Program-made: the position numbers and the translations under genes
Notes under the pieces: generated by a model
What the model was told of the DNA's origin: nothing
Database searches by the model: none
What the model saw: only the letters and a program-made list of their open reading frames with translations
Part shown: positions 3,143 to 16,506 of the stretch, piece after piece
Layout: each line of letters begins with the position of its first letter
Numbering within the stretch: position 1 is the stretch's first letter
Source of the DNA: an uncultured Lachnospiraceae bacterium
GTDB taxonomy: Bacteria; Bacillota; Clostridia; Lachnospirales; Lachnospiraceae
Assembly: GCA_947565305.1 (NCBI GenBank)
Contig: CANOFO010000020.1
Span: 1 to 36,061 of the forward strand
Length of the DNA: 36,061 nucleotides
Direction of reading: 5' to 3'

Positions 3143-4465
3143 TCATCCCGGCAAGCTATCCCTCAGACAGAGTACGCCCCATCCCAGAGCCTGGTTCGGA
3201 TACTCCGGCATTATCGGCAGATGCTTTGCCCCTCTTATCAGATACGCTTTCACTTTCTCCCCATACAGATAGGGGTCATTTCCCTCCACGACTCCCCACT
3301 GCATCAACAGCGCCGCACTGCCCGTGACAAACGGCGTTGCCATGGAAGTCCCGCTGCGCACCGCATAACCGCCACCAGGCGCTGCCGAATTGATGGACAC
3401 GCCAGGCGCTGCCAAATCCGGTTTTATCTGGTTAGTCTGTCTCGTATAACCACGCCCGGAAAACTCTGCAAGCCGGCCATATCTGGAATCATAGGCTGCC
3501 ACAGAAATCACTTTTTCCGCTGTGGAAGGAATCGTCAGCGTTGTCTCCTCCACCGGGTAGAGAAATCCGGTTCCCTGGTTCAGCACGGTCTGGCCTGGAA
3601 GCCACAAATCATAGTTTCCCCGCACAATACGCTCCGGTACTAAAACCACCCGCCAGATTCCAGAATCAATATAGGCAGAGACTGGCAGGAAATCAATATA
3701 GATTTCCTGATAAAGGTTATAAGGGCTCGGCTCCCCATAATAGAGCAGAATTTCCGTCTGTCCTATTACAAATCTCTGCGGCCCCTGAATTTGCCGTATA
3801 GGTCCTATCCGTCTGCCGGAAGGATGCTCCAGCAAAATGTCATACTGGTCGACATAGGATTTCCAGACCTGCAGGCTCAAAGCCGTCTCATAATCCCCCA
3901 CGCCCAGCTCAATCTCCTGTTCCTGTCCTTCCACGAGAATTCCTGAGGTATGCCCTCTTGCCGCCCCCTCATTTCCAGTTCCCACTGAGATAGTTGTCTT
4001 CCAGTAATTTGACATGTCATTGATATAGCTCTCCAGCAATGCCGTCCCGCTGTGCGAGCCATAATTGTTGCCAAAACTCATATTGACTGCCATAGGCATC
4101 TTGAGCTGCAATGCTTTTTCCACAACGTAATCCAGGGCGCGCATAAGCTGGGTCGTCCGCGGAAACCCATCCGGCTCTGCCGTCCCCAGCTTTACGACCA
4201 GCAGCGGACTTTCATATGCAACGCCGCGGTTGACGCCATCGGAAGCCCTGCCGTTTCCCGCCGCAATACCGGCTACATGCGTACCATGACCGGAGGTGTC
4301 ACGGCTGGGCACAAGACGAAAACGTTCCTGTTCACTTGGCGCATTCAATGCCTCATTGATTTGTTCCGCTGTAAATTCCCTGTCCAGCGTCTCATCATAT
4401 AGCGCAAGAATCCTTGTACTGCCGTCTGCATTGCGAAAATCAGGATGACTGTAATCAATCCCCTC
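3143..4465 (-). pseudogene. Csp-like S8 (subtilisin) peptidase, C-terminal part, separated from its N-terminus by an insertion
   Basis: The frame opens straight after a TAA at 4466-4468 that belongs to the inserted element, and begins EG then IDYSHPDF, exactly what follows the catalytic Asp in subtilases. It contains the catalytic His motif GHGTHVAG, the oxyanion-hole Asn in SVGTGNEG, a jelly-roll-like insert (from about ELGVGDYETAL), and the catalytic Ser motif RSGTSMATPF. The insert within the subtilase fold is typical of the clostridial Csp family, some of which process the spore cortex hydrolase SleC. The missing prodomain and catalytic Asp are at 12242-12661. A TTG at 4348 could start translation, but it has no good ribosome binding site. 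Joined, the two parts would give about 569 residues, the usual size of the family. As it stands the gene is broken. Confidence 0.9.
4459..4463 (-). repeat. Left boundary of the inserted element (att-like GGGGA repeat)
   Basis: On the minus strand the junction reads CATAAGAGGGGATTGATTAC, where ATTGATTAC is protease sequence and CATAAGA is element sequence. GGGGA recurs at the other junction (12267-12271). The boundary is placed by protein continuity (LDSG joined to IDYSHPD), so it is good to a few bases. The run of Gs hides the exact crossover point. Confidence 0.75.
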
Positions 4466-4468
4466 TTA

Positions 4469-4476
4469 TGTCAAGT
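4469..4476. repeat. Inner inverted repeat, left end of the element
   Basis: TGTCAAGT, the exact reverse complement of ACTTGACA at 12245-12252. In the circular form of the element the two copies would flank the crossover site, as expected for recombinase contacts in an attP site. They are unevenly spaced, about 6 nt on one side of the presumed GG core and about 17 nt on the other. Confidence 0.5.
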
Positions 4477-4485
4477 CACTGCAAA

Positions 4486-4515
4486 AAGTTTTTCAGCTTA
4501 TTTATTAAAAAACTT
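4486..4515 (-). terminator. AT-only hairpin after the recombinase operon, weak terminator candidate
   Basis: AAGTTTTT (4486-4493) pairs with AAAAAACTT (4507-4515), and on the minus strand TTT follows the stem. It lies about 85 nt past the stop of the last recombinase. The stem is almost entirely A-T, so stability is doubtful. Confidence 0.25.
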
Positions 4516-4600
4516 CCCTGTTTTAGCAGTTTCCTATGTAAGTACCCGCCTTTTTGCATACCTGCTGTCAGATAATTGCCACAAAAACCTGTCTGCCATG

Positions 4601-6181
4601 TTAAACTATTGCCGAATCAGTTTGTAGCGCTTTCCATTTGATTTCTATATCTTCTTCATTATAAACTACGATTTTATCAATATACTTCTCCATTGTCTCT
4701 GTTGCCAATAAGACCTCTCCCCCTGATATAAATTTCTCTGATTCCGCCTTTTGAATTTGTTCATCCAGTCGAATAACCCGCTCCTGTAAACTCCTGATAA
4801 CTCCCCGCTGTTTCTCCATCCCTGCATAGAGGGGACGGAACTCTGTCTGCTCTCCCAGAGCATATAACTGGTAACTCTCATAATGCACCTGTTTCAGCCT
4901 CTCATATTCCCTTTCAGCCTTCCTCATATCCCGCAATAATTTGTCACGTTTCACGTTCAAATCATCCTTATACCTATGGGAAACCTCTGCTGCAAGCTTC
5001 TGTTCTTCCAGATATTCTTCCAGCCGGAACAATACCACCTGTTCCAGAAACATGACATTGACCTTGCTGACACAATCCCTAAGTCCGTCCACATACCGGT
5101 TCTGACAGATAAAATAAGGATTCCGTCCCTCCTTTACCTGCAAGCTGCGTTTGCAGCATCCGCACACTGCCCTGCCAATCAATGGATGTCTGCTTTCTTT
5201 CCCCTTTCTTTTTCTGCAGCTTTTTCCCCTGCTTTTCTGGACTTCCTCAAAATCTTCCCTTGCAATAATAGGGGCATGGTGGTTTCGGATAATCTTCCAG
5301 TCTTCTCTTGATTTCAAGACGTTACGACCTCCCACCTGCTCCCTCTCCGTTTTACCATACTCCACATCCCCGACATACACCGGATTGCGTAAAATACTGC
5401 ATATGGTACTGTTACTCCAATTAAACTTATCCCCCTTTGGCTTGCGAGAGGTTGTGCCTTTCCTAATCTTAAACTCTATTGGCGTAGGAACATTCTCTAA
5501 ATTCAGTTTCTTTGCCGTCTGGGAGGATGTTACCCCCTGCAGGGCAAGGGCGAAAATCTCACGGACGACCGCCGCCTCATCCTCGCAGATGACAAGCATG
5601 TGCCTGTCATCCGTGCCCTTTTCATAGCCAAATGGAGCATTGGTGCTGACATACTGTCCGCCTTCCTTTCTTGCCCGCAGCGAAGTTTTCACTTTCTGCG
5701 ATAAATCCTTGCTGTACATGTCATAGAGGAGGTTTTTGAAATTTACATCCAACTCAGAGGTGTTTACCCGATAACTGGCGCTGTCATAATGGTCGTTAAT
5801 GGAAATAAAACGGATTCCCAAAAAGGGAAATATCTGCTCCAGATAAGAACCCACTTCCATATAATCCCTGCCAAACCGTGAAAAATCTTTTACCACTACG
5901 CAGTCGATTTTCTCATTTCTGGCATCTTCCAAAAGTTTCTGTACCCCCGGACGGTTGAAATTCGTCCCCGAAAATCCGTCATCCTGGTATTCCATAACCT
6001 CACATTCTGTAAAATGGGCAGCGATATACTTCCTTATTAAAGTGCGCTGCATGGAGATACTGCTGCTTTCCTCCCTCACTGTTTCATCTGTCTTGGAGAG
6101 GCGCATATAGGCAGCAATGCGGACAAAGCTTACATCCCTTTCCTTATCCATCTGCCTGATTCTTTCCATCTTGTTACTCAT
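4601..6181 (-). CDS. Large serine recombinase (third gene of the trio)
   Basis: 526 residues from the ATG at 6181, which has AAGGAGG 8 nt upstream; a longer frame to 6235 lacks this. The N-terminal resolvase/invertase catalytic domain has the active-site Ser in AAYMRLSKTDE and the conserved VVVKDFSRFGRDYMEVG. The central recombinase domain follows, then a zinc-ribbon motif (VCGCCKRSL with FICQNR) and a long charged coiled coil. This is the architecture of large serine integrases, which join attP and attB without needing long homology. The start overlaps the stop of the preceding recombinase by 8 nt, implying translational coupling. All signature catalytic residues I can check are present, so it is probably functional. 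Confidence 0.92.
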   Translation of the reverse strand: MSNKMERIRQMDKERDVSFVRIAAYMRLSKTDETVREESSSISMQRTLIRKYIAAHFTECEVMEYQDDGFSGTNFNRPGVQKLLEDARNEKIDCVVVKDFSRFGRDYMEVGSYLEQIFPFLGIRFISINDHYDSASYRVNTSELDVNFKNLLYDMYSKDLSQKVKTSLRARKEGGQYVSTNAPFGYEKGTDDRHMLVICEDEAAVVREIFALALQGVTSSQTAKKLNLENVPTPIEFKIRKGTTSRKPKGDKFNWSNSTICSILRNPVYVGDVEYGKTEREQVGGRNVLKSREDWKIIRNHHAPIIAREDFEEVQKSRGKSCRKRKGKESRHPLIGRAVCGCCKRSLQVKEGRNPYFICQNRYVDGLRDCVSKVNVMFLEQVVLFRLEEYLEEQKLAAEVSHRYKDDLNVKRDKLLRDMRKAEREYERLKQVHYESYQLYALGEQTEFRPLYAGMEKQRGVIRSLQERVIRLDEQIQKAESEKFISGGEVLLATETMEKYIDKIVVYNEEDIEIKWKALQTDSAIV

Positions 6182-7877
6182 GCCGTGCGCCTCCTTTCCC
6201 TGACATGCCATTTTCATCGGCATATAATAATTCATTCATGCAGAATGCAAACGTAATTTTTACCCGGTGATCGGCATACACATCAATCCGGTTAATCAGG
6301 GTATGTATGGATTCCTTTGTCAGTTCCGTCCTTTCATTGCATTTCATAAGATTCCGCAGGAACTTTCCCTTTTCCCTTATCTCCCCCTCCATGACATCTA
6401 ACCCGCGCTGTAATTCTTCTTTCCTCTCTGCTGCTTCATGGAGGGACTTCTCATTTTCCTTTTTCATATGCTGAAATTCTTCCAGGGAAAGGCTACCCTC
6501 ATGATATTTCAGGTACAGCTCACTCCCTCTCTTTTTTCTGCTCTCCTGCTGTTTCCCACACAAGACAATCTCATGCCTGATTTTCCTCTTTTGTTCCTCT
6601 GCCTGGTTTTCAAGCTCCTTTACCAGCCTGCCCGGGCGTAAACCTGACAGGGAGAACTCCTGACGCAGTGCAGTTTTTATCAGTTTATCCAGCACGCCCA
6701 TGCCTATGCTCTTTGCCGGGCACTGCAGTTCATCCAGCCTGCCGGAAGATGGGCAATAGTAACCATAATGGCGCACCATATCCCCAGAACCCAACTGCTT
6801 TGCATTTGCCACTCTTGCCATCTGCTTTCCACAGTCCCCACAAAACAGCACACCAACATAAATATCCTCCTCTATTGGCACTTTCTTAGAAAAACCGTCT
6901 CTATTGCAGTATTTTGACGCCGACTTTTCAAACATGGCAGCCACCCGGAAAAACACATCCTCGCTGACAAGAGGCTCATGGGTTCCATGCTGAATGCAGT
7001 AATCCCCGCTGTCCACATCATGGCGGTCCCTGATTTTATATTGTTTCCCGCAGGTTGTCCCCTGTACCAGACAGCCCATATAGACAGGGTTTGTCAAAAT
7101 CAGTTTTACCGTTCCGGCGGTCCACTGTTCCAGAACCTCCCCCTCCTGCCAGTACACATGCCCTGTCTTTCTGTAAATTCCCGGTCGGTGGATTCCCCTC
7201 TCATAGAGTTCTACGGCAATCTGCCTCATATTTTTACCAGATAAATACATTTCATAAATATCCTTTACAATCCCTGATGTCTCCGGGCAGATAAAAAGGC
7301 ATTTTTTCCCATCTGCCCATTCTGCCCGGTATCCATAAGGCGGGATTCCTCCGGTATAACTTCCCTGCTCCTGGCTGCTACGCCTGCTGGACTTTACCTT
7401 TTCGGCAATGTCCCTCACATACATCTCATTGACAAGATTTTTGAGGTTCAATGCCATCTCATCCGTGCCGGATTCCATGAAGAACGTATCAATCCTATCC
7501 GTAAGGGCAATAAAGCGGACGCCCATAAAAGGAAAAATCTTCTGGATATAATTCCCTGCCTCTATATGATTCCTGCCGAACCGGGATAAATCCTTGACAA
7601 TCACACAGTCAATGCGTTTTTTTCTCACATCCTGCAGCATTCGCTCAAAACCTTCCCTCTTGAAATTAGTTCCTGTTCTGCCCAAATCCGTATAACAGTC
7701 ATAAAGCACCATCTCCGGGTGTTCTTTCAGGTACTGCTTTGCCATAGCAACCTGCATATCAATGGATTCATTCTTTCTCTCTGTACCTTCTACGGAAAGC
7801 CTTGCGTAAATCCCTACATGAAAACGTCTGGAAAGAGGTATTTGTTCCGTTTTTTTCTTCTTAGAAGTACGGGCCAT
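6174..7877 (-). CDS. Large serine recombinase (second gene of the trio)
   Basis: 567 residues. The catalytic Ser lies in GIYARLSVEG, followed by CVIVKDLSRFGRNHIEAGNYI, a recombinase domain, a zinc ribbon (FCGDCGKQMARV with YYCPS), and a coiled-coil C-terminus. The start has AAAGGAGG 9 nt upstream and lies 15 nt past the stop of the upstream recombinase, so the three genes form one transcript. The N-terminus is basic (ARTSKKKKTEQ), unlike its two neighbours. It is clearly paralogous to them but diverged, which argues for separate roles and against recent duplication. Confidence 0.92.
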   Translation of the reverse strand: MARTSKKKKTEQIPLSRRFHVGIYARLSVEGTERKNESIDMQVAMAKQYLKEHPEMVLYDCYTDLGRTGTNFKREGFERMLQDVRKKRIDCVIVKDLSRFGRNHIEAGNYIQKIFPFMGVRFIALTDRIDTFFMESGTDEMALNLKNLVNEMYVRDIAEKVKSSRRSSQEQGSYTGGIPPYGYRAEWADGKKCLFICPETSGIVKDIYEMYLSGKNMRQIAVELYERGIHRPGIYRKTGHVYWQEGEVLEQWTAGTVKLILTNPVYMGCLVQGTTCGKQYKIRDRHDVDSGDYCIQHGTHEPLVSEDVFFRVAAMFEKSASKYCNRDGFSKKVPIEEDIYVGVLFCGDCGKQMARVANAKQLGSGDMVRHYGYYCPSSGRLDELQCPAKSIGMGVLDKLIKTALRQEFSLSGLRPGRLVKELENQAEEQKRKIRHEIVLCGKQQESRKKRGSELYLKYHEGSLSLEEFQHMKKENEKSLHEAAERKEELQRGLDVMEGEIREKGKFLRNLMKCNERTELTKESIHTLINRIDVYADHRVKITFAFCMNELLYADENGMSGKGGARHE

Positions 7878-7892
7878 CTTACGATACCTCCT

Positions 7893-9632
7893 TTAAGGTA
7901 ACGGCACGCGACGCAATACGTCACCTGCCATGTCGGCGGAAGGCATGAGAGAAATGCTCCGCATTTGCCTTCCTCCTCTTTCCTGCTCCATTATCGACGT
8001 GTTTTCCCTGTGTTCCATGAAATCTGCCAACATCAGAACCTTTACAAACATATCCTTTGCCTTAAGTTCCAAAAATACCCGCTTATCTTCATACACAAAA
8101 ATGCGGCTGACGAAAGTCACGAGAATATTCCGGCTTAATTCCGTAATTTCCAGCGTGGATTTCATCTTTTCCAGATTTGCCCCCGCTGCCACGCCTGCCT
8201 TAAATAAAACCTTAATTGCCTCCTCCTGCTGCCTAATGGCTTCCTCCGCCTCCTGGTACTGCGTTTCATAAATCTGCCGGAAATCGCGGAAATCTTCCTC
8301 TGTAATAATTCCCCGTTTCAAATCTTCGTATAATCCTGTACGCAGAGAAACATACTTTTCCTGTTCCTGATGAAGCTTCTGGATTTCTTTGTCGAAAGCC
8401 GTCACTTCATCAAACTGTACTTCCATTGTTTCTATCTGTGCCAATACATGGCTCTTATCCAAAAACAATGCTAACTGCTGCTGCAGCCCTGCCAGGATAA
8501 GGTGTTTCAATTTTTCCTCCGGGATGCTGTGTCTTGTGCAGCCAAGCCCCTTATTTCTGGTAGGGCAGATAAAATACACCTTTTCCGTTCCCTTATAGCG
8601 GTTTACACGTCTTATCATCGGCTCCCCGCAGTCGCCGCAGAACAGAAAGCCTGTAAACATATGGCATCCGGCTTTCCCGGATGAGGCCCTTGTGTCAACT
8701 TCCAATAATTTCTGGACTGTCTCAAAATCCTCTGCCGATACCACCGCCTCATGGGTATCCCATACACGCACCCATTCCTCTTTTGGCTTTTCCACCGAGC
8801 GTTTCACCTTATGGCTGACCTTTTCATTTTTCCCCTGCACCATCATTCCCATGTACAGTTCATTGGTAAGGATTCGCTTGACCGCTACAGCCGACCATTT
8901 CGCCTTTACGTGGGTTGCAAACCCGGTAGAGAATTTCTCCCCCTGCGACTTCTTATACTCCATCGGGGAAAGGATTCCCATCCCATCCAGTTTTTCCGCT
9001 ATGGCAAGGTTGCTGAGGCCTGCAATCTTCCATGCAAATATCTTCTTCACAATCCCGGCTGCATACTCATCCACAAGCAGATGGTTGATATTCTCCGGAT
9101 CCTTACGGTAACCGTACACCGCAAATGCACCAATAAAGTCCCCTTTCTCCCTCTTGACCTGTTGATGGCTCCTGACCTTTTTGGAAATATCGCTGCAATA
9201 TGCATCATTGACAAAGTTCTTGACCGGCAGCACCAGCGTTTTTTCATTAAAATCGGCTGTCAGCGAATCAAAGTTATCGTTCAGCGCTATAAACCGCACA
9301 GAAAAAGCCGGGAGGGTTTTTTGAATCAACCGCCCGGCTTCAATATAGTCCCGTCCAAATCTGGATAAGTCTTTTACAATCACACAATCAACGTGTCCAG
9401 CCTCTATATCTTCCATCATCCGCTTAAACGAAGGCCTGTCAAAATTTGCCCCCGACCATCCGTCGTCCACGTAGATGTCATAAATCTCCATATCGTCCTG
9501 CTTACGGATATAGGAACGTATCATATCTCTCTGGGAACGGATACTGTTGCTTTCCGCGCTGCTGCCATCCGATTCATCATCCCGGCTCAGACGGAGATAG
9601 ACTGCCACGTTATAGAAATCTTTCGCTTTCAT
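7893..9632 (-). CDS. Large serine recombinase (first gene of the trio)
   Basis: 579 residues from an ATG with GGAGG upstream. The catalytic motif is VYLRLSRDDESDG, followed by CVIVKDLSRFGRDYIEAGRLI. A recombinase domain is followed by a zinc ribbon (LFCGDCGEPMIRR and FICPTRNKGLGC) and a coiled coil (about 415-490). It is the first of the three recombinases on the transcript. Large serine integrases usually act alone as a dimer pair at each site. A conserved set of three suggests either division of labour (integration, excision, target choice) or a heteromeric complex, which is inference. Confidence 0.92.
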   Translation of the reverse strand: MKAKDFYNVAVYLRLSRDDESDGSSAESNSIRSQRDMIRSYIRKQDDMEIYDIYVDDGWSGANFDRPSFKRMMEDIEAGHVDCVIVKDLSRFGRDYIEAGRLIQKTLPAFSVRFIALNDNFDSLTADFNEKTLVLPVKNFVNDAYCSDISKKVRSHQQVKREKGDFIGAFAVYGYRKDPENINHLLVDEYAAGIVKKIFAWKIAGLSNLAIAEKLDGMGILSPMEYKKSQGEKFSTGFATHVKAKWSAVAVKRILTNELYMGMMVQGKNEKVSHKVKRSVEKPKEEWVRVWDTHEAVVSAEDFETVQKLLEVDTRASSGKAGCHMFTGFLFCGDCGEPMIRRVNRYKGTEKVYFICPTRNKGLGCTRHSIPEEKLKHLILAGLQQQLALFLDKSHVLAQIETMEVQFDEVTAFDKEIQKLHQEQEKYVSLRTGLYEDLKRGIITEEDFRDFRQIYETQYQEAEEAIRQQEEAIKVLFKAGVAAGANLEKMKSTLEITELSRNILVTFVSRIFVYEDKRVFLELKAKDMFVKVLMLADFMEHRENTSIMEQERGGRQMRSISLMPSADMAGDVLRRVPLP

Positions 9633-9763
9633 CTTCTATTCCTCCTGATTTATAATTCGTCAGCATTACCCATCCTACCGGGCATGAACCTTTCATCAGG
9701 AGTCCTGCCGGTTTCGTCCTGATAAAATCATAACACGCTCTCTGCGCTTTATAAATGCCCTTT

Positions 9764-10027
9764 TTATATGATTGCAGTCTGCTTTCTGACAAGCTGCACC
9801 ATGCGCTCATCCAACGTTTCCTGTTCACCCTGTGCATATCCAATCTGTAATATATACTCGCCTACATTCTGCGCAAAGGGATTCTTTACCTGCTCCAAAA
9901 AAAACTGCACCCGCTGGTTCCTGCTTTTGAACTGATCTATCACAACCTCCCCTGCATTTGACAATTCTTCCCTCTTGAGTTCCATAATAGGAATGTTCTT
10001 TAGTTCAGATAATTTTTCAAGCGTCAC
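9764..10027 (-). CDS. Small DUF6870-like protein encoded upstream of the recombinase trio
   Basis: 87 residues from a GTG at 10027, with AAAGGAG about 10 nt upstream. The middle (QVKNPFAQNVGEYILQIGYA) and the tail (ETLDERMVQLV) resemble DUF6870-type proteins seen near serine recombinases in clostridial mobile elements; this assignment is from memory of the family. It is acidic to neutral, with no clear DNA-binding motif. Its place just before the recombinase genes makes it a candidate accessory or directionality factor, but nothing in the sequence proves that. The 131 nt between it and the first recombinase holds no convincing gene. Confidence 0.65.
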   Translation of the reverse strand: MTLEKLSELKNIPIMELKREELSNAGEVVIDQFKSRNQRVQFFLEQVKNPFAQNVGEYILQIGYAQGEQETLDERMVQLVRKQTAII

Positions 10028-10145
10028 TGGTATGCCACTCCTTTCTAAAATTATTTTATTAGGAATGATGCCTGTCTTATGACTTGCAAATTCATACTGC
10101 TAACCCGCACTGCCCTCATTTTCCTTTTATCCAACAATAATGAGA

Positions 10146-10186
10146 GAAAAAATGCTAAGCCACATGTTTTAATCTATGGCTTAGCA
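10146..10186 (-). terminator. Rho-independent terminator of the chemotaxis receptor gene
   Basis: A perfect 10-bp stem, TGCTAAGCCA (10152-10161) with TGGCTTAGCA (10176-10185), and a 14-nt loop. On the minus strand it is followed by six T residues (10146-10151). It lies 36 nt past the receptor stop codon and separates that gene from the recombinase operon inside the element. Confidence 0.85.
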
Positions 10187-10221
10187 CTATATTAATGTTC
10201 AACTCAAAAAGCCAGATATAA

Positions 10222-11946
10222 TCAACGTTTCTTTAAATCAATCTGAAACATTGCCGTAATCTGATTCAGCTTATCAATAGTCTCAATACAATCCTCCACA
10301 AGTTCATTATTCTGAGTTGTCTGCGCAACAACATCTGTTGTTTTATCTGCAATATCGGTCACGCCAACTGCGGACTCATTGACCGTTGAATTGATGCCGC
10401 TAAGTGAATCTGCAATTTCTGCAACCGTGTCTGTCAGTTTGAGCACAGACTCTTCAATGGTGCTCATTCCCAACGAATATCTTTCCGAATCGTTATAATA
10501 GTTCTCACCGACCTCAGCAAACTTCTCATAATCTTTTAAAACAACTTTTTCAAGAAATTCCACCGTATCCCGAAGCGATTCCGCCAGCATGGACACCACA
10601 CGATTCACATCCGCAACAATAGAATTAATGCTTCCGACGGTTTCGGATGTCTGACTTGCCAGAGAGCCAATCTCTGTCGCAACAACGGCAAAGCCCCTGC
10701 CAGCTTCTCCTGCTCTCGCTGCCTCAATCGATGCATTAAGTGCAAGCAGGCTTGTCTGTGATGATATTGCCATAATCGCACTCGTTAACTCGTTTATCTT
10801 CTCAACCGCCTTAGATCCTTCAATTGCCTGTTCCGTCTTTTCACTGATATTCTGGTACATTCTTGTAGTTTTGTCCGTTGCTTCAGTCGTCGCCGTCTTC
10901 AAGCTTTCTGCACGTGTCTTTACCTCGCTGGCCAGACGCTCCCCCTCTGCAGCAAGGCTCTGAATCTGTTCGGTCTCTTTTTTCACATAACCGATATTGC
11001 CATTGATAATTTCGGTCGTCGCTGCAGTCTCCTCCATGCCCGCTGCAAGCTGCTGCGTCGTGGCAGAATTATCAGTACATTTGCTGTTAATCTCGGCGGA
11101 GATTGCCCTAACCTCATTTACATTATTCGTAATCTGTTCACTCACGCCATCAATATCGCCAACCATCGTACCCAAGTTTGTACGCATATCATGGATGGCA
11201 CGTCCCATCAATCCAAGTTCATCCTTTTTCTTTACAATTTTGGTACCCGCCTGATTCTCCGTAAAGTTAAATTTGCTTGTATCATTGATAATATCCGTAA
11301 TCTGCCCCAAGGCTTTCAGCATATATCCGACTACAGCCAAGCTTAAAATCATACCGAGTATTACTAAACCCACACTGCCACCAATCAGCCATTGTCTGAT
11401 TTCCGTCACGCCACTGAGAATATCATTTTCATCCGCTGTCATAACTAAAATACACTGGTTATCCAATACCATAAACGCCGCATATTTCAAAACGCCTTTA
11501 AAATTATATGTAATAACATCCGGTTCCGGCACAATACCCCTATCCAGCTCCGCAAGAATCTGCTTCACCGCTTCATTCTCAACCGACTGCCCGATTTTTT
11601 CCGGCGACGGATGGTAAAGCATGGTACTGTCACTCGCTACCAGGTAAGAATATGAGCTGTCCACACCCTCCAGCTTTGCATCCGCAAGAATTCTTTCAAG
11701 CATTTCATCAGACATCTCCCCACCTGCGCCAGAAATCTCATATTCCAACATTTTTGCAGACGCTTTCGTCAATGATAACATAGAACTGCGCGCCTGTTCT
11801 CTGATCAATTTGGAACTTGTCGGCAACGTAATCGCGATACATCCCACAACCGCAATAATCAAAAAAGATTCCGCCAGAATCATAACTTTAAATTTAAGTG
11901 AGTGGAAAATTCCCACCTTGCTGTCGTTCTTCTTTTTCATCTGCAT
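10222..11946 (-). CDS. Methyl-accepting chemotaxis protein with Cache-type sensor, carried inside the element
   Basis: 574 residues. A membrane segment lies at about 20-42, then an extracellular region of about 140 residues with Cache-like features ([36 protein letters not shown]), a second membrane segment (about 187-212), a HAMP-like linker, and a long helical signalling domain. The conserved receptor tip [21 protein letters not shown] is at about 395-415, where CheA and CheW bind. It is full length and looks intact. Two start codons are possible: ATG at 11946 (4 nt from GGAGG) and ATG at 11940 (10 nt away); the second has more usual spacing. No other chemotaxis gene is present in the window. 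Being inside a recombinase element, it appears to be cargo, which is unusual. Confidence 0.93.
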
Positions 11947-11983
11947 TTTTCCTCCGTAAACTAAATTAATCTTTATTTAATTG

Positions 11984-12018
11984 TAACATATTATATCATG
12001 TTATGAAAGATTATTTGT
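11984..12018 (-). promoter_or_regulatory. Possible promoter with inverted repeat for the chemotaxis receptor
   Basis: On the minus strand a TATAAT (11990-11995) sits inside an inverted repeat, TAACAT (11984-11989) with ATGTTA (11998-12003). The corresponding -35 (ACAAAT, 12013-12018, 17-nt spacer) is poor, so an activator or a different sigma factor may be involved. I see no sigma-28 flagellar consensus. The rest of 11947-12241 holds no gene or structure that I can support. Confidence 0.35.
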
Positions 12019-12244
12019 TACTTTTCGTACAGGATTTCAGGTTTGTACTTAGCGAGAAGATTAGTCAGGAACATCCGTATAAAAATTTGAACAACTTTCG
12101 TTAATACACAACATGTTAAATAAATGCAGCAAACAGTTTTCACTTTGTAAAACAGACCCATCTTACATCAAAATGACTATCTATTTTGCATTTCCTGTAG
12201 GACTAAATCAGCCGGAATCCTTGATATTTACTGGGTCCTTGCTA

Positions 12245-12252
12245 ACTTGACA
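12245..12252. repeat. Inner inverted repeat, right end of the element
   Basis: ACTTGACA, the exact reverse complement of TGTCAAGT at 4469-4476 near the other end. The matching pair supports the view that both junctions belong to a single element, including the chemotaxis receptor next to this end. Confidence 0.5.
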
Positions 12253-12266
12253 ATATAATAACACGC

Positions 12267-12271
12267 TCCCC
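12267..12271 (-). repeat. Right boundary of the inserted element (att-like GGGGA repeat)
   Basis: On the minus strand the junction reads CTGGATTCCGGGGAGCGTG, where CTGGATTCCGGG encodes LDSG of the protease and the rest is element. GGGGA matches the repeat at 4459-4463. Large serine recombinases cross over at a 2-bp core, and GG inside this run is the likely core. Confidence 0.75.
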
Positions 12272-12793
12272 GGAATCCAGAACCGCCACAATCACCCCTT
12301 TTCCTGTCAGGTTATATCTTGCACTCTGCAGCGGTGTGATACAGGATGCCTGTATACCCTCCCGCACAGCAAAATACAGCCGTTTGGGCTTTTCCACATA
12401 TTCCACTTCTATCGCAGCTGCCACCTCATCCATAGCAGATTCCGGCACATTTAAGATGGCATACTCGTTACTTAATTCATCCACACGTATCTGTGGATTC
12501 TCCCTGGAGAGCCGCATAATATCTCCGGAATATTTGACAATCAGCTCCCAGCGTTTCTCCTCCGGCTCATAACCCACGCCAAGATTTAGGGATTTCTCCC
12601 TCTCGCGCTCTGTGGCATCTAATGCAAGATTCAACAGGTTCTCAAATTTTTCGCTTGCCATATTGTTCCATTCCCTCCTACTTATGATAAAACAAAGCAG
12701 ACAAGTCCGCTTCAACTCCCTAAATCCCTCATTCTTGAGAGACTTGGACATAGTTCCCCAAAATTCAGTATTTATATAACCTCATTAATCTTC

Positions 12794-12926: not shown

Positions 12927-15623
12927 TCACAGCTTTTCTCTCCAACTTTTCAATATCTGCTCACAGCGGTCCACATCAACTTCCTCCACCGCATCTTTCA
13001 GCTGTTCAAACAAGTCATGCTGTACATCCAAGTAAAGGTATTGATTCATTTCCTTAATTACCGCTTCCATCCTATCTATGTCCAGCTCCTCTATAGCAGC
13101 TGTCATCTCAATAAAGCAACTTTCCAGCACGTCCTGTGGAATTTCCTTTTTGTTAGCCTCATCCTCCTCTTCCTCAGCACAAAAAGGTTCCAGTACAGAA
13201 AGATATCCAAGATACTCCGCCAGCATCTCCTCTGTACCTTCACGAATTGCTGCAGAATCTCTGGCATTTCCTGCTTTCTCCATGGCAGCGGCTTTCTCCG
13301 ATAAGGATATGGCTCCAATCTGCTTAGAAGAACTTTTAAGCGCATGAACTTCAATCGTATATCCGGTCCAATCCTTCTGCTCCACCATATTCCTGATTGC
13401 CTGCGCTTTCTTTTCTATATTTCGGTAATATACCTTTAATGTCTTCCAGAACAAACTTTCATTGACAAAGAATTTCATGGCTGCTTCCACATCCAAGTCA
13501 CCAATCACAATCGGTTCATACCTCCTAGGCTCCTTATCTGCATCTGCAGCATTGTACAACGTCTTCACCTTCTGAATCTTTTCCACCGGAAGCCACTGCC
13601 TTACCTTATCCACCAGAATGCGGATTTCGATGGGCTTGCCTATAAAATCATTCATGCCCTCCCGGCAGAACATCTCTTTCGTCCCCTCCACGGCGTTGGC
13701 AGTAAGGGCAATAATCGGCACATCATTGTATTCAGAATGGAAACGGCGAATGATATGTGTGGTCTCCACGCCATCCAGTTCCGGCATCATGTGGTCCATA
13801 AATACGATATCGTAATGGAAATTAGCAATCTTAGCAATTGCCGCCTGTCCGCTGGTCACAGTGTCTATCTGCATTTTCAGCGGTTCTAAAAGTCCTTCCG
13901 CCACCGTCAGGTTGACTGCATTATCATCAACAATCAGCACATGGGCCTCCGGAGCTATAAAATCAAATTCATTTTTATACTCGTCCCCATCAAAATTTAA
14001 CTGCTCCCCATTGAGAATCAACGCAATATTCAGGGCAAACAACGGTTTTTTGACAATAAGGAGATTGGGGATATGATAATCCACATGGTCGTAAAAACCT
14101 ATCAGCAGAACTGCCGTAATCTGCGGGTTGTTTCTGACATAACCCTCCACTAATTCTGTAAACATAGGATATTCAATAAAGAGAACTGTCCTTTTCTCCT
14201 CTGGAAGCAAATCAAACTCCTTGGCAGAAACAAGCCTGATACATTCCATGCCAAGACGTTCCGCATCGGAACAGAACTGCTCCCAAATATAGGGATTTGA
14301 CATCAGACCTGCCATTAATACAGACTCTGGTTCCTTAATGGCAATGCTTGGGGAATCATCCACAATTTTCTGAGGAAGTACAAAAGAAAACTTGCTTCCT
14401 TTCCCATATTCGCTTTCGACCCAGATATCTCCGTCCATCAGGGTCAGAAGCTGCTTGGCAATTGCCAGCCCAAGCCCCGTGCCCTCGATATTGCGGTTTC
14501 TCTTACTGTCCACCTGCTGGAAAGATTGAAACAGTTTGCTAAGGTCTTCTTTCTTAATGCCAATCCCGGTATCCTCCACACAAACATGAAGTTCTATTTG
14601 CTCTGATGAAATCTTTTCATAATCTACTTTTAAGACAATCTTGCCCTTTGAAGTAAACTTAGCTGCATTATTCGTGAGATTAAGCAAAATCTGTTTAAGC
14701 CTAAGGTTATCGCCCCACAATTTACTAGGCAAATCCGGTGCAATATCAACAATAAGTTCCACATCTTTTCCTTTGAGCCTTGCCATGACGATATTGGCAA
14801 CGTCATACACCATGGACATCAGCTCATACTCAACCTCATTGATATCCATTTTCCCTGACTCTATCTTGGAAAAATCCAATATATCATTGATAATCGTGAG
14901 CAGCGATTGACCGGCCTCCTTAATCTGATTGATATAATTCCTGGCTGCGGGAGGGAGCTGTTCGCGGAGCGCCATTTCCGCCATGCCAATTACGGCGTTC
15001 ATGGGTGTCCTGATTTCATGGCTCATATTGGCAAGGAAATCGGATTTCATGTGGGAGGAACGCTCAAGTTCTATATTTGCCTGATAAACAAGATATTTAT
15101 GGTATGCCATCTCCGACAAGACATCTGCAATCATATGCAGAAACTTTGCCGCATTGTCAATGGCCTTCTGATCTATAATGTTTACCTCGCCAACTGCCTG
15201 CACATACTCATCTTCATCCACGCCGATTTCCGCTGCAATCTTCCTTACCTGCGCAAGGTCAGGAGATTCGGTAAGGACCTGTCCGCCGATAAAGCAGCCT
15301 ACCATTTTGTTTTCCGCCATAATTGGCGCAGCAAAATCCATCAGGCCTGCATGGCAGAAATAGACGACCGACTCTCCATGTTCCAATGCCAGGCTCGCCC
15401 CCTGGCTGTCACATTGTTCACAGCGCGCACAGCCAAGTGCAGACCCTCTGGTATACTTCATGCAGAAATCTGAGAAATTGCTGCCTGATGTGACCGGAGT
15501 GCCATCCGCCTCCGTGGTAAGCGCCGCCATTCCGCTCATGTCAGAAAAACCGTCCTGGATCTTCTGTAAAATCTTCTTGTCAATTAAATCTGTCAGCTTC
15601 AATTCTTCTCTGTCTTTATCCAT
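12927..15623 (-). CDS. Hybrid sensor histidine kinase with PocR sensor, two receiver-like domains and HPt
   Basis: 898 residues from an ATG 8 nt after AGGAGG. Residues 12-175 are a PocR-type ligand-binding domain with the Cys set C54, C65, C68, C71 and C90. HisKA has phospho-acceptor His202 (NMSHEIRTPMN). The ATPase domain shows NLTNNAAKF, DTGIGI and GTGLGLAIA (about 300-415). Residues 432-540 form a degenerate receiver-like domain without acidic pocket or phospho-Asp. Residues 560-680 are a true receiver (LIVDDN, phospho-Asp610). An HPt domain follows with His760 (VHALKSSSKQIGA). There is no transmembrane segment, so it senses a cytosolic signal. It lies 37 nt after the double-receiver gene on the same strand; the two are probably partners in one phosphorelay. 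Confidence 0.93.
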   Translation of the reverse strand: MDKDREELKLTDLIDKKILQKIQDGFSDMSGMAALTTEADGTPVTSGSNFSDFCMKYTRGSALGCARCEQCDSQGASLALEHGESVVYFCHAGLMDFAAPIMAENKMVGCFIGGQVLTESPDLAQVRKIAAEIGVDEDEYVQAVGEVNIIDQKAIDNAAKFLHMIADVLSEMAYHKYLVYQANIELERSSHMKSDFLANMSHEIRTPMNAVIGMAEMALREQLPPAARNYINQIKEAGQSLLTIINDILDFSKIESGKMDINEVEYELMSMVYDVANIVMARLKGKDVELIVDIAPDLPSKLWGDNLRLKQILLNLTNNAAKFTSKGKIVLKVDYEKISSEQIELHVCVEDTGIGIKKEDLSKLFQSFQQVDSKRNRNIEGTGLGLAIAKQLLTLMDGDIWVESEYGKGSKFSFVLPQKIVDDSPSIAIKEPESVLMAGLMSNPYIWEQFCSDAERLGMECIRLVSAKEFDLLPEEKRTVLFIEYPMFTELVEGYVRNNPQITAVLLIGFYDHVDYHIPNLLIVKKPLFALNIALILNGEQLNFDGDEYKNEFDFIAPEAHVLIVDDNAVNLTVAEGLLEPLKMQIDTVTSGQAAIAKIANFHYDIVFMDHMMPELDGVETTHIIRRFHSEYNDVPIIALTANAVEGTKEMFCREGMNDFIGKPIEIRILVDKVRQWLPVEKIQKVKTLYNAADADKEPRRYEPIVIGDLDVEAAMKFFVNESLFWKTLKVYYRNIEKKAQAIRNMVEQKDWTGYTIEVHALKSSSKQIGAISLSEKAAAMEKAGNARDSAAIREGTEEMLAEYLGYLSVLEPFCAEEEEDEANKKEIPQDVLESCFIEMTAAIEELDIDRMEAVIKEMNQYLYLDVQHDLFEQLKDAVEEVDVDRCEQILKSWREKL

Positions 15624-15660
15624 CTATCCAGCCTCCTTTCCCTGCACAGTTACCAGCCTT

Positions 15661-16506
15661 TCACCCAATGTGTTTTGCAATCTCTTCCAACAGCTTATCG
15701 CGGTCCACTGGTTTTAACAGGTAACCCTGAGGCTTTAAGACGAGCGCTTCCTTAATCTTTTTACGCTCTGTAACTCCGGTCAGGAAAACAACTGGAATGT
15801 TTTTTGTTGCTTCTTTTGCGCGCAGCTTCTCCAAAACTACCGTCCCGCTCTCTTCCGGCATCATGTAATCCAGCAGAATTAAATCTGTGGACCTCCTCTC
15901 CAGGAATTTCAGGGCAACCTTACCGCTGACGGCGGTCGCCACATCATATTTCTCATGCAGGTGTTCTTTGATGAGCTTTAACATCATTGGATTGTCGTCC
16001 ACCACTAAGACATGTTTTTTATGCGATACCGACATTATATCCTCCAGACTGCGCAGCTCTGGCATAGGCTCCGGCGTTCCCTGATTCTCCATCTGCCCTG
16101 CCATAACTATATCTTCATTCTCATCACCGTTAAGCCCTTCCTGCTCCATGAAATCCAGAATCTTCTCCTTGATGGCAGTTGCAGAAAGCGGTCTATGTAA
16201 AACAAGGCTCGCAACATTAACCGCAATCCGCTGAAATTCATCACAATCTTCCTTGGAGCCAAGGATGATGCAGGGGATATTCGAGCGCATGAGCCTGGAA
16301 CTGATGCTCAACATCTGCACAATACTGTCCCTCGCCTCATTATAAAGGCAGTATACAAAAGCATGCGGCGCAAAATAGTCTATATGCCCCACGATATCTT
16401 CGTAACGCGTTGAGGAACTGAGAACCACAAAATCATCCGTAATCTGTTCAAAAAAAGCTGTAATAGCTGAATCGTTTTTTCCAGTCACTAATATTTTATA
16501 CCGCAT
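15661..16506 (-). CDS. Two-receiver response regulator without output domain
   Basis: 281 residues from an ATG with AAGGAGG upstream. Residues 1-120 fold like a receiver but lack the acidic pair at the start (TGKNDSA) and a clear phospho-Asp, so this half is probably a pseudo-receiver. Residues 164-281 are a canonical receiver: VLVVDDN, phospho-Asp213 in LLDYMMP, Thr in FLTG, and Lys in LLKPVD. There is no DNA-binding or enzymatic output domain. It is therefore likely to work by protein contact or as a phosphate shuttle for the hybrid kinase downstream. The degenerate half parallels the degenerate receiver of that kinase. Confidence 0.9.
   Translation of the reverse strand: MRYKILVTGKNDSAITAFFEQITDDFVVLSSSTRYEDIVGHIDYFAPHAFVYCLYNEARDSIVQMLSISSRLMRSNIPCIILGSKEDCDEFQRIAVNVASLVLHRPLSATAIKEKILDFMEQEGLNGDENEDIVMAGQMENQGTPEPMPELRSLEDIMSVSHKKHVLVVDDNPMMLKLIKEHLHEKYDVATAVSGKVALKFLERRSTDLILLDYMMPEESGTVVLEKLRAKEATKNIPVVFLTGVTERKKIKEALVLKPQGYLLKPVDRDKLLEEIAKHIG

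Follow-up and report, generated by a model that had tools for sequence, protein, structure and literature searches.

A three-recombinase element within a csp germination-protease gene of Lachnospiraceae, probably excised during sporulation

Introduction

The gene-intervening elements gin, skin and yin and the triplet serine-integrase modules of Streptococcus are the closest described counterparts of an element that splits a csp gene, encoding a Csp germination protease, in an uncultured Lachnospiraceae bacterium (GCA_947565305.1). The stretch of DNA analysed, hereafter the window, is the 36,061-nucleotide contig CANOFO010000020.1 (C20) from an assembly of 3.07 Mb in 202 contigs that is 83% complete.

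The element gin resides in the mother-cell sporulation gene gerE of Bacillus cereus ATCC 10987, and its excision during sporulation restores the reading frame (PMC5595907). It shares with the window element a non-phage character, three serine recombinases and a small directionality factor (in the window a candidate only), and differs in the gene occupied, a length of 28.6 kb, a 9-bp core, the location of girAB apart from girC and a GirX of 42 aa. This likeness concerns the three-recombinase make-up; the window's large serine recombinases (LSRs) are designated LSR1 to LSR3. The skin element in sigK of C. difficile likewise combines an LSR with a directionality factor, the latter being produced in the mother cell under the control of sigma-E and SpoIIID; in contrast to the window element it is phage-like, has a single LSR expressed from a sigma-A promoter and occupies a sigma-factor gene (PMC5025042). 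The yin element of C. botulinum splits yabG, a germination-linked sporulation protease gene, and a putative sigma-K promoter precedes the gene for its putative directionality factor; it differs in being prophage-like, with one recombinase described (PMC10747680). In the triplet modules in integrative and conjugative elements (ICEs) of Streptococcus, three LSRs all point the same way with respect to the target gene, the direct repeats measure 2-8 bp and the clades follow position, a pattern shared with the window element, whereas their targets are mutT, traG and hsdM, they have no tie to sporulation and they are accompanied by conjugation genes, none of which was seen in the window element (PMC4701971).

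A search that left most subscription papers and preprints outside its reach found no paper in which an element of this kind interrupts csp, spmA, spoVT or spoIVB. On our best reading, the element would work as skin and gin do, in a target gene that is new and with four insertion sites and swappable cargo. The evidence presented below suggests that the window probably harbours a non-phage element intervening in a sporulation gene, whose excision in the mother cell would restore the csp frame.

Results and discussion

The split csp gene and its junctions

The csp gene of the window starts at 12661 on the minus strand. Its 5' half (codons 1-131; 12269..12661) comprises the prodomain (CspB_prodomain, PF18425, E=2.8e-34) and the catalytic Asp, ends in VIAVLDSG, and aligns over 131/131 residues at 97% with the intact csp of genome G019, the nearest relative with an uninterrupted gene. 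The reading frame of this half continues into element DNA up to a stop at 12242. The 3' half (3143..4462, minus strand) runs from Gly131 to the stop codon, resuming at 4462 with GIDYSHPDF; it contains the GHGTHVAG and GTSMATP motifs, affiliates with Peptidase_S8 (E=4e-35) and is 96% identical in amino acids to the corresponding part of G019. In the latter, a single protein of 569 residues runs through the window's split point. Among solved structures it is matched best by CspB (4i0w, E=9e-105), and the D-H-S triad was read from it; the same motifs are present in the two halves of the window. The gene thus has the CspB prodomain, S8 domain and triad of a Csp germination protease, and the element lies inside its coding sequence. 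The first-pass annotation had joined the two pieces into one S8 peptidase of about 569 residues and had placed the insertion two codons past the catalytic Asp; the search for an uninterrupted gene in relatives yielded intact copies, G019 among them, that agree with the former claim, and the junctions agree with the latter.

The element of ~7.8 kb (4463..12269) is bounded by attL, GATTCC-GG-GGAGCG, and attR, written AAGAG-GG-GATTG or AAGAG-GG-GATTGATTAC. Both share a GG core, located on the minus strand at 12270..12271 in attL (element arm GGAGCGTGTTATTATATTGTCAAG) and at 4461..4462 in attR (element arm CTTGACATAAGAG), so that the crossover falls inside a Gly codon, the second one past the codon of the catalytic Asp counting every codon. 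The placement in GG follows from the third base of this codon, which varies with the host at attR: six other genomes with an insertion at this codon have an element arm terminating in AG, after which come GG and the host's third base. The attL was seen in five of these six. At the level of sequence, joining at this short common core would restore exactly the 569-codon frame of the empty site in G019, while joining at GGGGA, the longest string common to both junctions, would shift it.

A family-wide search with the exact attR pattern matched 5/397 genomes, one of which is the window's own, and the element with this particular pattern is therefore rare outside the genus; the intact-site pattern matched 64/397. 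Three of the other four attR matches have LSR1 and csp adjoining, and the fourth (L114) has csp with no LSR in the flank.

Recurrence at four codons

Pieces of csp were found in 28 of the 29 genomes of the genus, and the gene is interrupted in 14/28, at four codons. The 3' part is present in 27 genomes, 13 of them with interruptions at site 1 (DS/G, the window's site; the slash marks the break; seven genomes), site 2 (YLY/G; five), site 3 (NP..G/W; three) or site 4 (QWG/; one), some genomes having two. To these are added site 3 in G007 and the C-terminal pieces of G024 (site 4 and a site-3 junction), a genome counted as interrupted from these pieces alone. Two sites are occupied in G004, G010 and G024 and three in G007. 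In G004 the 5' half (534706-535095), the middle (514631-515842) and the last piece (459957-460091) lie on one contig with two insertions; in G007 the pieces 1-131, 131-530, 526-557 and 557-569 are spread over three contigs, and sites 1, 2 and 3 each adjoin a recombinase trio. 

With LSR1, 16 named loci were found. Eight of them (L031-L038, of which L032 and L035 are near-identical) have an LSR1 65-79% identical, and in 8/8 a csp homologue of 30-53% identity resumes at codon 131. Another, L041, adjoins csp at site 2, two (L039 and L040) lie in spoVT, and the remaining five have no csp match within the fetched flank. The junction is not attributable to chance, since it recurs in six other genomes and at 8/8 of these loci with an LSR1 at least 65% identical.

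Such recurrence bears on the proposal that the two protease fragments have separate functions, for example with the prodomain acting in trans. The 5' half does contain the whole CspB prodomain and has a stop codon of its own, yet the 3' half lacks the catalytic Asp, and fragments generated at sites 2-4 would differ greatly in kind; we consider this reading hardly credible.

Some csp loci have other peculiarities. Very large insertions were observed at site 2 of G004 (~54 kb; G004:C2:460091-514631; L088, L103) and at site 4 of G003 (~91 kb; G003:C1:1030251-1121108; L089, L090). In L092:2721-7992 (G017:C10), csp is intact and its last 43 codons occur a second time ~3.4 kb downstream, perhaps as the scar of an old site-2 element.

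The recombinase operon and its clades

The attR end of the element contains, all on the minus strand, the genes for a DUF6870 protein (9764..10027), LSR3 (7893..9632), LSR2 (6174..7877) and LSR1 (4601..6235), the last being next to attR. The three LSRs are full-length, with Y.RLS and SRFGR motifs, and as co-oriented recombinases beside a target gene with a repeat in the 2-8 bp range they conform to a triplet serine-integrase module. The same gene order at the attR end was found in 6/7 site-1 elements, G020 having none there. DUF6870, the first gene of the operon, may encode the directionality factor. 

The LSR1 clade largely predicts the insertion codon. Amino acid identities within sites (S1 46-79%, S2 70-87%, S3 76-100%, S4 78%; the G010 sequence compared is a fragment) exceed those between sites (32-52%), except for an overlap of S1 and S4. 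In the LSR1 tree, S2, S3 and S4 each form a clade (support 100). The S1 sequences also group together (100), apart from that of G007, which groups weakly with S4 (52). Sites 1, 3 and 4 unite in one clade (99), within a wider clade (94) that also holds S2 and elements in spoVT; it does not include the trios in spoIVB, tyrosine-integrase and aldo-keto-reductase genes.

The sigma-E-like sequence upstream of DUF6870

In the window, DUF6870 is preceded by the sigma-E-like promoter sequence ATA-N17-AATAAAAT (10053..10080, minus strand). DUF6870 (PF21757) gave 55 hits in 19/29 genus genomes and none in 14 control genomes; 53 loci were analysed after two weak ones (G014:C4, G002:C21) had been dropped. 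The pattern ATA(0-3)[AG]GACA(8-14)NATA, sought within 230 bp upstream, is present at 18/19 csp-linked loci, csp paralogues included, the sole miss (G020:C65) differing by one mismatch. It also precedes DUF6870 at both spmA loci (2/2), at the remnant beside csp (1/1) and at 2/14 loci of unassigned target, and was absent at those in spoIVB (0/4), tyrosine integrases (0/9) and aldo-keto reductases (0/4). Summed, csp and spmA targets have it in 20/21 cases versus 0/17 for the other three target classes, for a pattern defined post hoc. A stricter form, ATA-N17-NATANNNT, occurs in 12/14 trios (shuffle mean 0.27, maximum 2). An earlier subset including the loci found with LSR1 gave 19/19 versus 0/11 (Fisher p=1.8e-8, uncorrected for descent), leaving out four csp trios for which no DUF6870 had been found at that stage. 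At the spmA locus G007:C35, the mark was noticed first and the target identified afterwards.

Targets were assigned to csp by tblastn and to spoIVB by NCBIfam (G007:C69 by its recombinase only). Of the tyrosine integrases and aldo-keto reductases, five pieces were identified with Pfam and the others by eye; G009:C194, where the contig ends, was assigned by its recombinase only. In G003 and G002, DUF6870 was joined to the trio via an LSR3 gene split by a nested insertion.

In C. difficile, cspBA and spmA are sigma-E genes and Csp functions in spore germination (PMC3789822); sigE scored above the curated cut-off in 29/29 genus genomes. A -10-like site, CATATNNT, is enriched upstream of csp itself (14/26; shuffle mean 1.36, maximum 5). 

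Against this background, vegetative on/off switching, in which growing cells would excise and re-insert the element at low frequency and form mixed populations without sporulation control, seems quite improbable. The excision of yin at every culture time point, as described in PMC10747680, would fit such switching, and related elements have spread between species, which implies that they are excised in lineages that live on. Against it stand the role of Csp in germination and the sequence before DUF6870, which resembles a sigma-E promoter and tracks mother-cell targets.

Programmed excision or loss of the gene

The first-pass annotation had left open whether the element is a reversible switch or has simply destroyed the gene, and had named decay of the protease halves as a sign of the latter. 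No such decay is visible. In an alignment of 515 codons from 26 genomes, which excludes G023 and the codons past site 4, interrupted csp copies are interspersed with intact ones, their halves are open, and most interrupted-intact sister pairs have a ratio of nonsynonymous to synonymous substitution (dN/dS) of 0.03-0.05, like intact pairs. These values argue against long decay, not against recent insertion. Dating of the interruption by dN/dS was rejected, as the sisters of interrupted copies are mostly intact.

The comparative evidence favours programmed excision over a destroyed gene because the halves are undecayed, the junctions frame-exact, the gene interrupted in 14/28 genomes and four sites used within it, and because the sigma-E-like sequence before the DUF6870-LSR operon accompanies mother-cell targets. 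The principal rival is a plain insertion hotspot, in which a conserved csp motif is targeted and the gene inactivated, the loss being tolerated via a paralogue or because the element does not last long in sporulating lineages. We regard it as unlikely, though clearly the more serious of the alternatives. 

Several observations weigh against programmed excision, suit the hotspot, or do both. No excised form was seen in the 83%-complete assembly. In the inspected copies of a csp paralogue (paralogue B, 35% identical), D, H and S are all retained, so that loss of csp might be tolerated. Recombinases are missing or broken in some genomes: site 1 of G020 has its junctions and no LSR, no LSR lies within 14 kb around the main-gene site-2 3' piece of G002, LSR1 of G010 has an internal stop, and LSR3 of G003 is split by a nested insertion. 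The csp 5' half was not found in G023, a 99%-complete genome. The S3 LSR1 is identical in G016 and G007; some insertions may thus be young, and clean halves are weak evidence for that reason. No other of the 40 closest pairs listed has a dN/dS as high as that of the closest interrupted-intact pair, G016-G012 (0.10). In favour of the hotspot, other trios strike conserved motifs of non-sporulation genes (tyrosine integrases, aldo-keto reductases). Trios also occur in the forespore genes spoIVB and spoVT, for which a mother-cell logic offers no explanation. The promoter-like pattern was drawn from csp loci after inspection, and its carriers are related; moreover, the DNA preceding csp itself shows no enrichment of the sigma-E -35 ATA (3/26, shuffle mean 1.92).

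A hotspot, in turn, does not readily account for the interruption of half of the csp-bearing genomes of the genus with no visible decay, for the use of a single gene at four separate sites, or for the covariation of the pre-DUF6870 sequence with the target class. The paralogue offers it limited help, since in G022, G010 and G020 it too is split at this codon position of site 1.

Proposed mechanism

Programmed excision would most likely operate as in gin and skin. A mobile element with three recombinases would have taken the csp germination-protease gene as its home, with exchangeable cargo. During sporulation a mother-cell sigma factor, probably sigma-E, would transcribe the DUF6870-LSR3-LSR2-LSR1 operon, and LSR1, probably switched to excision by the DUF6870 protein, would recombine the GG cores of attL and attR. 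The element would be freed as a circle, the csp frame would again be exact, and Csp could be made and packed into the spore; in the forespore chromosome the element would be kept and hence inherited. By analogy with the mother-cell excision of skin and gin (PMC5025042 and PMC5595907), the event is probably one-way in a dying cell. Of the two outcomes foreseen in the first-pass annotation, the switch is therefore the one favoured, although "reversible" is probably the wrong word.

More tentatively, and at odds that we would put slightly below even, these elements may form a Lachnospiraceae lineage of three-recombinase elements in mother-cell genes (csp at four codons, spmA at two) with a sigma-E-fired excision operon, for which the dying mother cell is a cost-free exit. 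In some hosts, three excisions per sporulating cell would then bring up to four pieces together into a single germination gene, and the elements would serve as exchangeable cargo docks.

Cargo, origin and related insertions

The cargo of the window element is a methyl-accepting chemotaxis protein (MCP; 10222..11946, minus strand). Among site-1 elements, that of G000 carries an MCP, that of G018 an 886-residue protein, that of G004 a 2995-residue protein resembling nonribosomal peptide synthetases, that of G007 a 1013-residue protein and a transporter-like protein, and that of G010 almost nothing; names other than MCP were assigned by eye. The three LSRs, DUF6870 and the MCP take up most of the window element and include no conjugation gene (smaller overlapping open reading frames were not scanned), and the element was not classed as an ICE. 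Directly upstream of csp, the window encodes a PocR-type hybrid sensor kinase and a response regulator (12927-16506).

A phage or plasmid origin was rejected: LSR1 relatives in phage (593) and plasmid (326) records are all below 60% identity, and viral contigs gave a single relative at 36%. DUF6870 had no PHROG match at E<=1. Its equation with a known directionality factor was likewise rejected, as it had no notable solved-structure match (best E=0.62) and its name appeared in none of the papers searched.

Related trios interrupt further genes. Insertions at the MSGSP motif of spoIVB were found in L146, L148 and L151 (G015:C7, G004:C3, G016:C16), with the TIGR02860 C-terminus after attR and, in G015, spo0A downstream. 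The 5' end of spoVT holds trios in L039:11687-12220 and L040:1711-2247 (TIGR02851 confirmed for L039). In L147:4135-6480 (G017:C4) a lone LSR adjoins a cwlD gene (TIGR02883) without its N-terminus, the break falling at the HGG motif. Two different sites of spmA hold trios with the sigma-E-like sequence, in L171:4045-5063 (G007:C35) and L212 (G001:C218). No NCBIfam or Pfam model recognised the truncated spmA; it was named from homologues that bear the annotation spore maturation protein or nucleoside recognition protein, from the next gene with its Gate domain (PF07670) and from an intact frame of 214 codons in G000. Tyrosine-integrase genes are hit by many trios (L156-L158, L217, L218, L220-L222, L224), several at the HDLRH motif; two pieces were confirmed by Pfam and the rest identified by eye.

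Recombinase genes are themselves invaded by nested mobile elements. LSR3 is cut near residue 64 in several trios (L207, L208, L211, L213, L227), with an additional LSR nearby in L208, L211, L213 and L227, and LSR2 is cut near residue 63 in L037:3211-8590.

Implications

If programmed excision holds, the assembly of genes during sporulation would be common in at least this genus of Lachnospiraceae, and it would act on a germination protease instead of a regulator. Mobile elements could then occupy an important gene at little cost. With a promoter-like mark accompanying the target class, the choice of mother-cell genes by such elements would become testable. The scoring of interrupted sporulation genes in metagenome assemblies would also be affected, since some of those regarded as broken may be functional.

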